From Haloarcula halobia (GTDB lineage: Archaea > Halobacteriota > Halobacteria > Halobacteriales > Haloarculaceae): 64,000 bases of DNA. The position numbers and the translations under genes are program-made. Location: NCBI RefSeq assembly GCF_029338255.1, contig NZ_CP119787.1:868001-932000 (forward strand), written 5' to 3'. Positions 1 through 3,415 of this stretch are shown in pieces. Each line of letters begins with the position of its first letter. The first letter of the stretch is position 1. The notes below the pieces were generated by a model. The model had not been told where the DNA came from. It worked only from the letters and a program-made list of their open reading frames with translations, and did not search any database.

Positions 1-240
1 ATCGCGCACCACGGTAGCGGCGACTTCACTGTCGGCTTCGCGAACGGGCGCGGCGATCCGGTGGCCGACAGCGACCTCACCCCGCTGTTCAGGGGCGCGA
101 TCGAGGCCACCGAGGAGGCGATATACAACTCGCTCCTGCGGGCAGAGACGACCAGCGGACTGGAGGAGACGACGATACGGGCAATTCCCGAGGACGCCGT
201 CGCCCGTGCAGTAGCAAACCGCAACGCGAGCGGTACGTAA
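1..240 (+). CDS. P1-family peptidase (DmpA/S58), C-terminal fragment
   Basis: This reading frame is open from the window edge to a TAA at 238-240 and gives the last 79 residues of a protein. The stretch HHGSGDFTVGFANG followed by a helical tail (RGAIEATEEAIYNSLLRAET) matches the C-terminal part of DmpA/BapA-type self-processing aminopeptidases (family S58). These cleave N-terminal residues from small peptides or amides. The nucleophile region lies outside the window, so activity cannot be judged. The alternative is another Ntn-fold member of the same superfamily. The next gene begins 46 bp downstream on the same strand. Confidence 0.75.
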   Translation: MAHHGSGDFTVGFANGRGDPVADSDLTPLFRGAIEATEEAIYNSLLRAETTSGLEETTIRAIPEDAVARAVANRNASGT

Positions 241-285: not shown

Positions 286-1845
286 GTGATGCCACCCGAG
301 GAACTGGACATCCAGTCGGAAGCGACCGTCTCCGTGCTCTTCCTGGACGTGCGGAACTTCACGCTGTTGCTCGACAACTACGATTCCAAGGACATCACGG
401 AGATGCTCGACTTCCTTTTCAGTTCCGTCCGCGACATCGTGACCGACCACGGCGGGACGGTGGACAAGATCGTCGGCGACGGGATGATGGTCGTCTTCGA
501 GGGCGACGACCCCGGGACCGAGGCGCTCCGGGCCGCGACCGAGATCCACCAGAACACGACCGGCGAGACCGAACGGACCCAGGGCTTCGGGACCATCGAG
601 ATCGGCATCGGTATCTCGACCGGGACGGTCAACCAGGCGAGCCTCGCCGACGTCGACTCGACGGTCATCGGCCGGTGTGTCAACATCGCCGCCCGACTCG
701 AGGCGCTGTGTAAGAAGTTCGACGCCTCGATCCTCTTCGACGCGGAGACCTACCGCAGCAGTTCCGTCCGCGGCCTCACCAAGGGCTTCATCGCCCGCAA
801 GATTCCGGACCAGAACCTTCGTGGCATCCGGAAGGGTATCGACGTCTATCACCTCTGTGATACCCACAAGTTCAGCGAGGAGTACATCAGACTGTTCAAC
901 GAGGGCGTCGAGCAGTTCGTCGACCAGAACTACGAGGCGGCGCTCAGCGCGTTCACCGAGGCCTACACGCGCGACGAGCGCTACACCGACCAGGCCTTGC
1001 TCAACCACTTCACGAACAGCTGCTTAGAGCACATCAACAACGAGCGGGCCCTCTTTCGCAACCCGGACCGCTACGAAGAACACTCGACGACCCAGGAACG
1101 CCAGTCCCTGGAACTGGAGGGGTACATCGACCGCGTCACGCTGACCCGCGAGTTCGACCCCGAGTACGTCCTCGACGTCGGCTGTGGGACCGGGAAGGTG
1201 ACCCAGCGCCTCGCGAAGTCCTACCCCGACAGCACCATCGTGGGCCTGGACACCTCCCGCTCTGCCGTCGCGAAGGCCCGGACCGAACACGCCCCCGAGA
1301 GATTCGACATCGAGTACAAACACGCCGCGATAGAGAACTACTGTCCGGACGACGAACGCGGGCGCTACGAACTCATCTTCTCGAACTCGGCGATGCACTG
1401 GGTCGAAGAGCAACACCACGCTTACGCGAACCTCCGGCGGCTGATCACCGAGGACGGCCTGCTGGCCATCCACCAGGGCCACGAGGGCACGTACAAGGAG
1501 TTACACCAGGTGACCGTCGACGTCCTCGAGGACTTCGGCTACGACTCGTACTTCGAGAACCTGAGTCCGCCGCTGGACCTCATCTACTACACCGAGGAGG
1601 CGATGCGGACGCTGCTCGAACGCCACGACTTCGACCCACTCGAGTCGAAAGTCGAGGAGACCACCGCACCGGACACCATCATCGAGGACTTCGCCGAGGC
1701 GAGCCTCAACGCCTACTGTGACCGACTCGAGAACGACTCCCAGCGGACTGTCTTCCGGGAGCAGTTCAAGAAGCGCGCCAACCGGGAACTCGACACCGAC
1801 GACGTCACGGTCCGTCGGATATACGTGATTGCGACTCCAGCGTGA
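286..1845 (+). CDS. Class III nucleotidyl cyclase fused to SAM-dependent methyltransferase
   Basis: The product is 519 aa, starting at GTG 286 or ATG 289. Residues about 15-200 form a class III adenylate/guanylate cyclase homology domain: FLDVRNFT carries metal-binding D21, KIVGDGMMVVF carries the second metal Asp D65, and GRCVNIAARLEAL supplies the Asn and Arg expected to stabilise the transition state. A helical, TPR-like linker follows at about 205-270. Residues about 290-400 are a class I methyltransferase with motif I LDVGCGTG, then a trans-aconitate-methyltransferase-like C-terminus. No membrane segment is seen, so the protein is probably cytoplasmic. The visible catalytic residues suggest an active cyclase, but whether the substrate is ATP or GTP is not clear. 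The gene is tightly linked to the GNAT and phosphodiesterase genes downstream. Confidence 0.85.
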   Translation: MMPPEELDIQSEATVSVLFLDVRNFTLLLDNYDSKDITEMLDFLFSSVRDIVTDHGGTVDKIVGDGMMVVFEGDDPGTEALRAATEIHQNTTGETERTQGFGTIEIGIGISTGTVNQASLADVDSTVIGRCVNIAARLEALCKKFDASILFDAETYRSSSVRGLTKGFIARKIPDQNLRGIRKGIDVYHLCDTHKFSEEYIRLFNEGVEQFVDQNYEAALSAFTEAYTRDERYTDQALLNHFTNSCLEHINNERALFRNPDRYEEHSTTQERQSLELEGYIDRVTLTREFDPEYVLDVGCGTGKVTQRLAKSYPDSTIVGLDTSRSAVAKARTEHAPERFDIEYKHAAIENYCPDDERGRYELIFSNSAMHWVEEQHHAYANLRRLITEDGLLAIHQGHEGTYKELHQVTVDVLEDFGYDSYFENLSPPLDLIYYTEEAMRTLLERHDFDPLESKVEETTAPDTIIEDFAEASLNAYCDRLENDSQRTVFREQFKKRANRELDTDDVTVRRIYVIATPA

Positions 1846-1856
1846 GGGTGTACACG

Positions 1857-2399
1857 ATGGTCACGGTGGAATTCGTTCGCGACCCACGGCCCTACGGCAG
1901 CGAGATTCGGCGGCTCCTCGCCGAGGCAAACGACGAGTTCGTCCCGCCGCTTGCGTCCCGTGAGGGGACGACACAGACGGCTGGGCTCGACGAACAGCGA
2001 AACGACGCGCTCGAGGACTACCACGAGCAGTGCATGGACCAGTCGTTCGTGCTTGCCCACGCGGACGACGACGTCTACGGATTCCTCTCCTTTCGCCAGG
2101 ACTACGCGACCGAGGCGCTGGGGGACTACATCCCCTCGAACTACGTTTCGACGATCATCGTCGACGAGGCCCGTCGCCGCGAGGGGTACGCACGACGGAT
2201 GTACGAGACGCTCCTGACGGACCTCCCGCCGTCGGCGCGGGCGCCCTACGTCACGACCCGGACCTGGAGCACGAACGACGGGCACCTGACGCTGCTCGAG
2301 GAACTCGGGTTCGAATGCCTCGCTCGCCTCGAGGACGACAGGGGCGAGGGCATCGACACAGTCTACTACGGCATCGCCGCCGACGAGTTCGACCCGTGA
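1857..2399 (+). CDS. GNAT-family N-acetyltransferase
   Basis: The product is 180 aa from ATG 1857. A GTG at 1842 overlapping the upstream stop would add five residues, but the ATG gives the natural N-terminus MVTVEFVRDP. Central beta strands (FVLAHADDDVYGFLSF) lead into the acetyl-CoA-binding loop VDEARRREGYARRMYETLL, which fits the R/Q-x-x-G-x-G/A signature, and then ELGFECLARLEDDRGEGIDT typical of the GNAT C-terminus. It presumably transfers acetyl from acetyl-CoA to a small molecule or protein amine. The target is unknown. It lies between a nucleotide cyclase and a CpdA-like phosphodiesterase, overlapping the latter by 4 bp (GTGA), so the three genes are probably co-transcribed. Confidence 0.8.
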   Translation: MVTVEFVRDPRPYGSEIRRLLAEANDEFVPPLASREGTTQTAGLDEQRNDALEDYHEQCMDQSFVLAHADDDVYGFLSFRQDYATEALGDYIPSNYVSTIIVDEARRREGYARRMYETLLTDLPPSARAPYVTTRTWSTNDGHLTLLEELGFECLARLEDDRGEGIDTVYYGIAADEFDP

Positions 2400-3169
2400 G
2401 CGGCCCCATCGCGGTCCTCGGCGACGTCCACCTGGAACCGCGCCGGGAATCGCGACTGTTCGACGCGCTCGAGGCGACGCTCCGGGACGTCCAGTCACAC
2501 GACCCGTCGCTGCTGGTCGTGCTGGGCGACGTCGTCCAGGAGACGGCCCCCGGGACCGACCGGCGATTGCTCCGCCGGTTCGTCGACTGCCTCGAGCGTA
2601 CCGACGTCCCGTTCCGGTGTGTCCCCGGCAACCACGACCTGGCCGGCCTCTCGCCGGCGGCCTATCGCGACGTCGTCGGCCACGACCTGTGGGACATCGA
2701 CCCGTCGGCCGACTGCGTCTTCCTCGATTCGACGGCGCCCCACCTCGACGGCGGCCGGGGGGAGGTCTCCGAGGCCCAGCTGGCGCGGCTCCGGGACCTC
2801 CGTGGCGAACTGACCGACGCCGTGGCGTTCGTCCACCATCCGCTCGCCCGCCAGACCCTCGACGGCAACTACTGGCACGAGTCGGCCCCGGCCGGCGCGT
2901 ACTGTGCGAACATGGACCTCGTGTGCGACCGCCTGTCTGCCGCCGGTGTCGCGACGGTCGTCAACGGACACCTCCACTGGTGGGGGTACGTCCGGTCGGA
3001 CGACGTGGTCCACGCCACCGTCGACGCGTTCAACAAGGAACTGCATCCACGGGGCGAGACGGGGAACTACGCGCTGGTAGCGCCGGGCGACCCGGCGTCG
3101 GTCACGAAGGTGGCCGGCGACGGGACGGCCGAACGGCTCGACGGACGGTTCGACCGCTCGCCCGACTAG
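2396..3169 (+). CDS. Metallophosphoesterase, CpdA-like (possible cyclic-nucleotide phosphodiesterase)
   Basis: The product is 257 aa. The GTG at 2396 overlaps the GNAT stop (GTGA), a usual operon junction. All calcineurin-like motifs are present in order: GDVH near the N-terminus, LGDVV, PGNHD, a histidine in AFVHHPL and NGHLHWWG. This order and spacing fit the CpdA/Icc class of dinuclear-metal phosphodiesterases, some of which hydrolyse 3',5'-cAMP. Because the gene is linked to a class III cyclase, a cyclic nucleotide is a plausible substrate, but that is inference. Other phosphodiesters remain possible. No signal peptide is visible, so it is probably cytoplasmic. Confidence 0.82.
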   Translation: MSGPIAVLGDVHLEPRRESRLFDALEATLRDVQSHDPSLLVVLGDVVQETAPGTDRRLLRRFVDCLERTDVPFRCVPGNHDLAGLSPAAYRDVVGHDLWDIDPSADCVFLDSTAPHLDGGRGEVSEAQLARLRDLRGELTDAVAFVHHPLARQTLDGNYWHESAPAGAYCANMDLVCDRLSAAGVATVVNGHLHWWGYVRSDDVVHATVDAFNKELHPRGETGNYALVAPGDPASVTKVAGDGTAERLDGRFDRSPD

Positions 3170-3226: not shown

Positions 3227-3415
3227 GTGTCGGCCGCTGCCACGTCGTTCTGGCAGGAGTGCGACCGCTACCACGACCTCGCGGAGCGGTTCGAGCGCAA
3301 TATCGAGATCACCCACCCCGACGCCCTGTCGGGGCGTAGCGGCACCTACAGCTGTGGCTGTGCCTGGTGTGCCCGTGAGGTGACCTACTACACGTACGCC
3401 GGCCCGCGACGCTGA
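3227..3415 (+). CDS. Small cysteine-containing protein of unknown function
   Basis: The product is 62 aa from GTG 3227, 57 bp after the phosphodiesterase gene. The first half is predicted helical (WQECDRYHDLAERFERNIEI). The second half holds a tight CGCAWC cluster (YSCGCAWCAREVTYY), which could bind zinc or another metal or act as a redox site. I do not recognise a named family. Codon use matches its neighbours, and the acidic/aromatic make-up supports a real gene. It may belong to the upstream transcription unit, but the gap also leaves room for its own promoter. Confidence 0.6.
   Translation: MSAAATSFWQECDRYHDLAERFERNIEITHPDALSGRSGTYSCGCAWCAREVTYYTYAGPRR

Follow-up and report, generated by a model that had tools for sequence, protein, structure and literature searches.

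On balance, the genes at the start of the window (the whole stretch of Haloarcula halobia DNA analysed, 64,000 nucleotides in length) are best read as belonging to a rare haloarchaeal cyclic-nucleotide system, comprising a cyclase whose product is most likely cAMP, a dedicated membrane protein, a phosphoesterase and two auxiliary enzymes, a methyltransferase and a GNAT acetyltransferase. In response to an unspecified cue, the cyclase domain would synthesise a 3',5'-cyclic nucleotide, with cAMP or a closely related compound as the most likely product, and the membrane protein would respond to it as receptor or effector, a role as membrane sensor being less likely. The Rv0805-type phosphoesterase, where present, would reset the system by removing this signal, and the fused methyltransferase and the GNAT may serve as auxiliary modifiers. 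A preliminary description had proposed a cyclic-nucleotide module of cyclase, GNAT and phosphodiesterase, and this is strengthened by the conservation of the module in several halobacterial families and by the ATP-type signature of its cyclase. The membrane protein, encoded outside the window and not seen in that description, is new here as a fourth component. The features of the locus are as follows.

-1481 to -879 (G000:C1:866519-867121), minus strand: membrane partner, 201 aa, outside the window; identified by gene map and partner profile search
1 to 240, plus strand: 3' end of a P1-family (DmpA-like) peptidase gene, between the cyclase gene and the membrane-partner gene
289 to 1845, plus strand: cyclase-methyltransferase fusion gene, 518 aa from ATG 289 (519 from GTG 286)
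1857 to 2399, plus strand: GNAT acetyltransferase gene, 180 aa
2396 to 3169, plus strand: metallophosphoesterase gene, Rv0805/GpdQ fold, 257 aa; candidate cyclic-nucleotide phosphodiesterase

Gene layout and predicted activities of the gene products

The cyclase, GNAT and phosphoesterase genes are packed in the manner of an operon and abut or overlap as first described, with an 11-bp gap between cyclase and GNAT, counted from the GNAT ATG, and a GTGA overlap shared by the GNAT and phosphoesterase genes. An in-frame GTG at 1842 is an alternative GNAT start which would overlap the cyclase gene. For the cyclase, ATG 289 is likely the start in preference to GTG 286, because it is kept in a 97% identical relative. 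Values of dN/dS between close relatives were roughly 0.05-0.2 for the cyclase, GNAT, phosphoesterase and upstream membrane protein. Directly 3' of the phosphoesterase gene is a predicted small gene (3227-3412, plus strand) that encodes ~62 residues, among them a CGCxxC cysteine cluster. No tRNA was found adjoining the locus as an integration mark.

The fusion protein consists of a class III cyclase domain (approximately residues 9-190), a helical linker (~195-255) and a SAM methyltransferase (from ~256). It matched Guanylate_cyc (PF00211) with 52.1 bits against a curated Pfam cut-off of 21.9, the only PF00211 match in its genome, and Methyltransf_25 with 65.1 bits against a cut-off of 27. PDB sequence matches of the cyclase domain were to bacterial adenylate cyclases. 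With residues numbered from ATG 289, the metal-binding Asp20 and Asp64 and the transition-state Asn132 and Arg136, already recognised in the preliminary description, were invariant in 11 of 11 full-length homologues ranging down to 27-28% overall identity, as was the pair Lys60 and Thr125. The domain score and active-site residues place the domain among the class III nucleotide cyclases, and Lys60/Thr125 corresponds to the signature of class IIIb adenylate cyclases, pointing to selectivity for ATP. Thr at the second base-selecting position is the form found in class IIIb adenylate cyclases. In Ma1120 and other adenylyl cyclases, ATP is specified by the Lys (PMC4215837). Lys60 together with Phe18 would also be compatible with the clade D uridylate cyclases (PMC11224242); at positions inferred from the numbering of that study, the clade D Phe and Lys are present and the third residue is not, and the base-selecting residues of clade B and E PycC are absent.

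Bacterial class III adenylate cyclases of the Lys/Thr type, such as CyaB (3r5g), OaPAC (5x4t) and their relatives, have the catalytic domain, the Asp pair and the Lys, Thr, Asn and Arg in common with the fusion, whereas the C-terminal SAM methyltransferase is the haloarchaeal protein's own feature. Among the candidates compared from outside the haloarchaea, no full-length cyclase-methyltransferase was found, the matches being to the cyclase domain only. The fused methyltransferase is of the BioC/trans-aconitate type (Pfam, NCBIfam). Its SAM motifs are kept in the nine standard methyltransferases of the family, with small departures in Halobacteriales archaeon YIM A00013, and both members of a second, TFIIB-type, form of the cyclase have lost its SNxxxHW and HQG motifs. 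These two proteins of ~750 aa (L067:11282-13519, plus strand; L069:8514-10775, minus strand) carry an N-terminal TFIIB cyclin-repeat domain (PF00382; 46.0 and 31.4 bits, cut-off 23.6), so that the fold of a general transcription factor is joined to a second-messenger cyclase.

The GNAT can be assigned to its family by its match to Acetyltransf_1 (PF00583; 27.6 bits, curated Pfam cut-off 20.7) and by the predicted acetyl-CoA-binding motif RRxGxA, found as RRxGxAR and invariant in six homologues. The same subfamily is present in eight other genomes, with no cyclase in the flanks retrieved there.

The phosphoesterase matched Metallophos (PF00149) with 54.8 bits against a curated Pfam cut-off of 21.5, and its five metallophosphoesterase motifs (DxH, GD, GNHD, HH, GHxH) were invariant in 14 homologues. 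An AlphaFold2 model (mean pLDDT 91) gave Rv0805 as its top PDB fold match (E 5e-14), followed by GpdQ. The modelled calcineurin-like fold and all of the metal-binding motifs are shared with the class III phosphodiesterases Rv0805, CpdA and GpdQ and fit a class III cNMP phosphodiesterase (Rv0805/CpdA), making the protein a candidate for such an enzyme. Of the earlier assignment to the CpdA class, the motifs and the general fold stand, whereas identity as a CpdA equivalog was rejected, the NCBIfam CpdA score (16.2 bits) being far under the cut-off of 225.

In a phylogenetic tree, seven cyclase-linked phosphoesterases formed one side of a branch with support of 100/99, opposite nine unlinked relatives. 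Relatives without a cyclase occur near ABC transporter operons in three genomes (G223, G186 and G076; L070, L072, L075), and because of these neighbouring genes another phosphodiester substrate is plausible for the unlinked relatives and is a possibility for the module enzyme too. In the closest relative, Halomicroarcula sp. SYNS111, the phosphoesterase gene (L063:9343-10114) carries an additional G within a run of G and is read in two frames, reflecting either a sequencing error or a recent pseudogene.

Such substrates would suit a small-molecule modification operon, in which a metabolite is modified by the methyltransferase and the GNAT, the phosphoesterase is GpdQ-like and has a glycerophospho- or other diester as its substrate, and the cyclase is vestigial or regulates only the methyltransferase to which it is fused. 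We regard this as unlikely. It would accommodate the closeness of the methyltransferase to carboxyl-methylating enzymes, the presence of GpdQ among the best fold matches, the ABC transporters beside unlinked phosphoesterases and the occurrence of the GNAT subfamily without a cyclase. However, the cyclase active site shows no variation at all, in contrast to the methyltransferase motifs, which decay in the TFIIB-type variants. The phosphoesterase accompanies these variants too, and the partner that constantly goes with the cyclase is a membrane protein.

Distribution and gene order in Halobacteria

The cyclase was searched for in 392 halobacterial genomes and in family-wide cyclase-profile searches of 146, 125, 170, 9 and 26 genomes. 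Ten carriers were identified, namely the genome of the window (G000), Halomicroarcula sp. SYNS111 (G319), Halobellus limi (G512), Halobellus rarus (G513), Halobacteriales archaeon YIM A00013 (G387), Natrarchaeobius chitinivorans (G347), Actinarchaeum halophilum YIM 93972 (G227), G352, G023 and G107. The fused cyclase was found in 8 of the 392 sampled genomes (2%).

Six genomes belonging to three families (G000, G319, G352, G512, G513 and G347) have the order cyclase-GNAT-phosphoesterase on one strand with short gaps or overlaps, so the order is not unique to this strain, and cyclase identity across these families is ~40-68%. Other arrangements were seen in the remaining carriers. G023 has two cyclases, one followed by the GNAT and the second, of TFIIB type, located ~2 kb further on and convergent with the phosphoesterase; a TFIIB-type cyclase is likewise convergent with the phosphoesterase in G107. 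No GNAT was detected next to the module in G107 or G227. No phosphoesterase match was found in G387 or G227, and this component is therefore not essential to the system. In G387, GNAT and cyclase are separated by an Orc1/Cdc6-like gene (L168:8208-9485), which is missing from the syntenic position in G227.

The variable presence of GNAT and phosphoesterase is what would be expected of unrelated genes that are neighbours by chance in this strain. Nevertheless, such an explanation is highly improbable and is contradicted by the comparative data, given the order kept with short gaps or overlaps in three families at the above divergence, the phosphoesterase linkage that G023 and G107 show in a different orientation, and the exact co-occurrence of the membrane protein with the fused cyclase.

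In Halobellus limi the module genes are located on a plasmid, the only plasmid carrier found among the plasmids searched. Viral contigs gave matches to the cyclase domain only, the membrane protein being absent from them, and no convincing defence genes were found in the surroundings of relatives.

The membrane partner and the search for a receptor

The fourth component of the module is a membrane protein of ~200 residues, a constant companion of the fused cyclase. It has three predicted membrane helices, arranged as two helices, a soluble part and a C-terminal helix. In the genome of the window its gene is found on the minus strand, flanked by a racemase-like gene and the P1 peptidase gene and lying 0.9-1.5 kb upstream of the window. 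The same trio of racemase, membrane protein and peptidase occurs in three Halobellus genomes, where it shares a contig with the cyclase at a distance of 47-50 kb. Gene-neighbourhood comparison placed the partner gene near the cyclase or phosphoesterase in seven carriers, and in G023 and G107 this gene lies upstream of the phosphoesterase gene and overlaps it.

A profile search detected the partner in 8 of the 392 genomes, exactly those eight with the fused cyclase, and it was also present in both of the further carriers checked (G512 and G513). The probability of this co-occurrence by chance is 8e-17 by genome and 1e-9 by genus, values that ignore phylogeny and overstate the significance, given the small number of carriers and the relatedness of some of them. 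The membrane proteins of G387 and G227 share 88% identity and their cyclases only 35%, from which it appears that the cyclase was exchanged while the partner stayed. Rarity, plasmid location and this apparent exchange tilt the balance towards a function that is mobile and conditional.

The preliminary description had likened the locus to the cAMP-regulated acetylation of mycobacteria. In mycobacteria, the cAMP-regulated lysine acetylase is a fusion of a cNMP-binding domain to a GNAT. The likeness consists of a GNAT gene next to cyclic-nucleotide genes, whereas the GNAT here has no cNMP-binding domain detectable by Pfam, as had been noted from the outset, and PF00027 was above its cut-off in 0 of 10 carriers, of which G107 gave a single sub-threshold match, compared with 10 of 14 control genomes. 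Together with the occurrence of the GNAT subfamily without a cyclase and its absence beside the module in two carriers, this led to rejection of the analogy. The PF00027 results make it unlikely that the carriers have a receptor of the conventional CRP type or a cNMP-binding acetylase.

By exclusion and co-occurrence, the membrane protein is the best remaining receptor candidate, though it could equally be a sensor controlling the cyclase. Neither Pfam nor profile comparison found a significant relation to a known cNMP receptor, and a fold search with its model (pLDDT 69) gave no match below E 0.08. A more speculative proposal, to which we attach little credence, is that the protein represents a new class of cyclic-nucleotide receptor, that the messenger is methylated by the fused methyltransferase and perhaps acetylated by the GNAT, and that the TFIIB-fused cyclases tie it to transcription initiation.

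The membrane partner also invites comparison with the antiviral Pycsar systems (PycC and PycTM), which resemble the module in pairing a class III cyclase with a constant membrane protein of two helices, a soluble part and one helix. They differ from it in that the module has adenylate-type residues, a methyltransferase fusion and its own phosphoesterase and GNAT. In a Pycsar-like mechanism, infection would switch on the cyclase, its cyclic nucleotide would cause the membrane protein to open or oligomerise, with arrest or death of the cell as the outcome, and the phosphoesterase would damp accidental firing. This is possible, if doubtful. The rare and patchy spread, the Halobellus limi plasmid and the apparent cyclase exchange beside a nearly unchanged partner would all agree with it, as would matches of PADLOC PycC models to the cyclase and weak matches of PADLOC PycTM models to 3 of 10 partner members (best E 0.0096) and to 0 of 10 control membrane proteins. 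Against this, the partner had no match to Pfam PycTM (PF18967), and its hhalign score with a small PycTM set, the profile of which was built without L202 (frame-shifted annotated start), was reached by 9 of 60 block-shuffled controls and is not significant. The cyclase has the adenylate-type Lys/Thr instead of clade B or E PycC residues, and the neighbourhood contains no defence genes of note. Bona fide haloarchaeal Pycsar pairs, in which PycC and a PF18967 PycTM overlap or adjoin (L183:5078-6297, L187:5367-6614, L201:767-1989; some on plasmids), are clearly different from the module. Membership of Pycsar, which calls for a PycTM or PycTIR effector, was rejected on the missing Pfam match and the non-significant profile comparison, and the resemblance is kept as a working analogy.

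Cyclic nucleotides in haloarchaea

Reports of cAMP in haloarchaea date back to 1986, and in Halobacterium it oscillates with the cell cycle (PMC8646023, PMC1906763). It is present in both Haloferax and Halobacterium, and the enzymes of its synthesis and degradation are not settled (PMC8646023, PMC6741144, PMC1906763). Preliminary deletion data cast doubt on the class IV cyclase candidate in Haloferax, class III members are very few among archaeal cyclases, and no phosphodiesterase was recognised in Halobacterium (PMC8646023, PMC1906763). Haloferax volcanii lacks a cyclase of class III. No description of the combination of cyclase, GNAT and phosphoesterase was found in the open-access literature searched, in agreement with the preliminary description, which knew of no such haloarchaeal system; an earlier description elsewhere is possible.

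With carriers making up only 2% of the sampled genomes, the locus leaves cAMP in species without the module unexplained. In species that are in cultivation, Halobellus limi and Natrarchaeobius chitinivorans among them, it does bring together a candidate cyclase, a candidate phosphoesterase and their constant membrane partner, and therefore the making, breaking and sensing of a cyclic nucleotide can be tested together.
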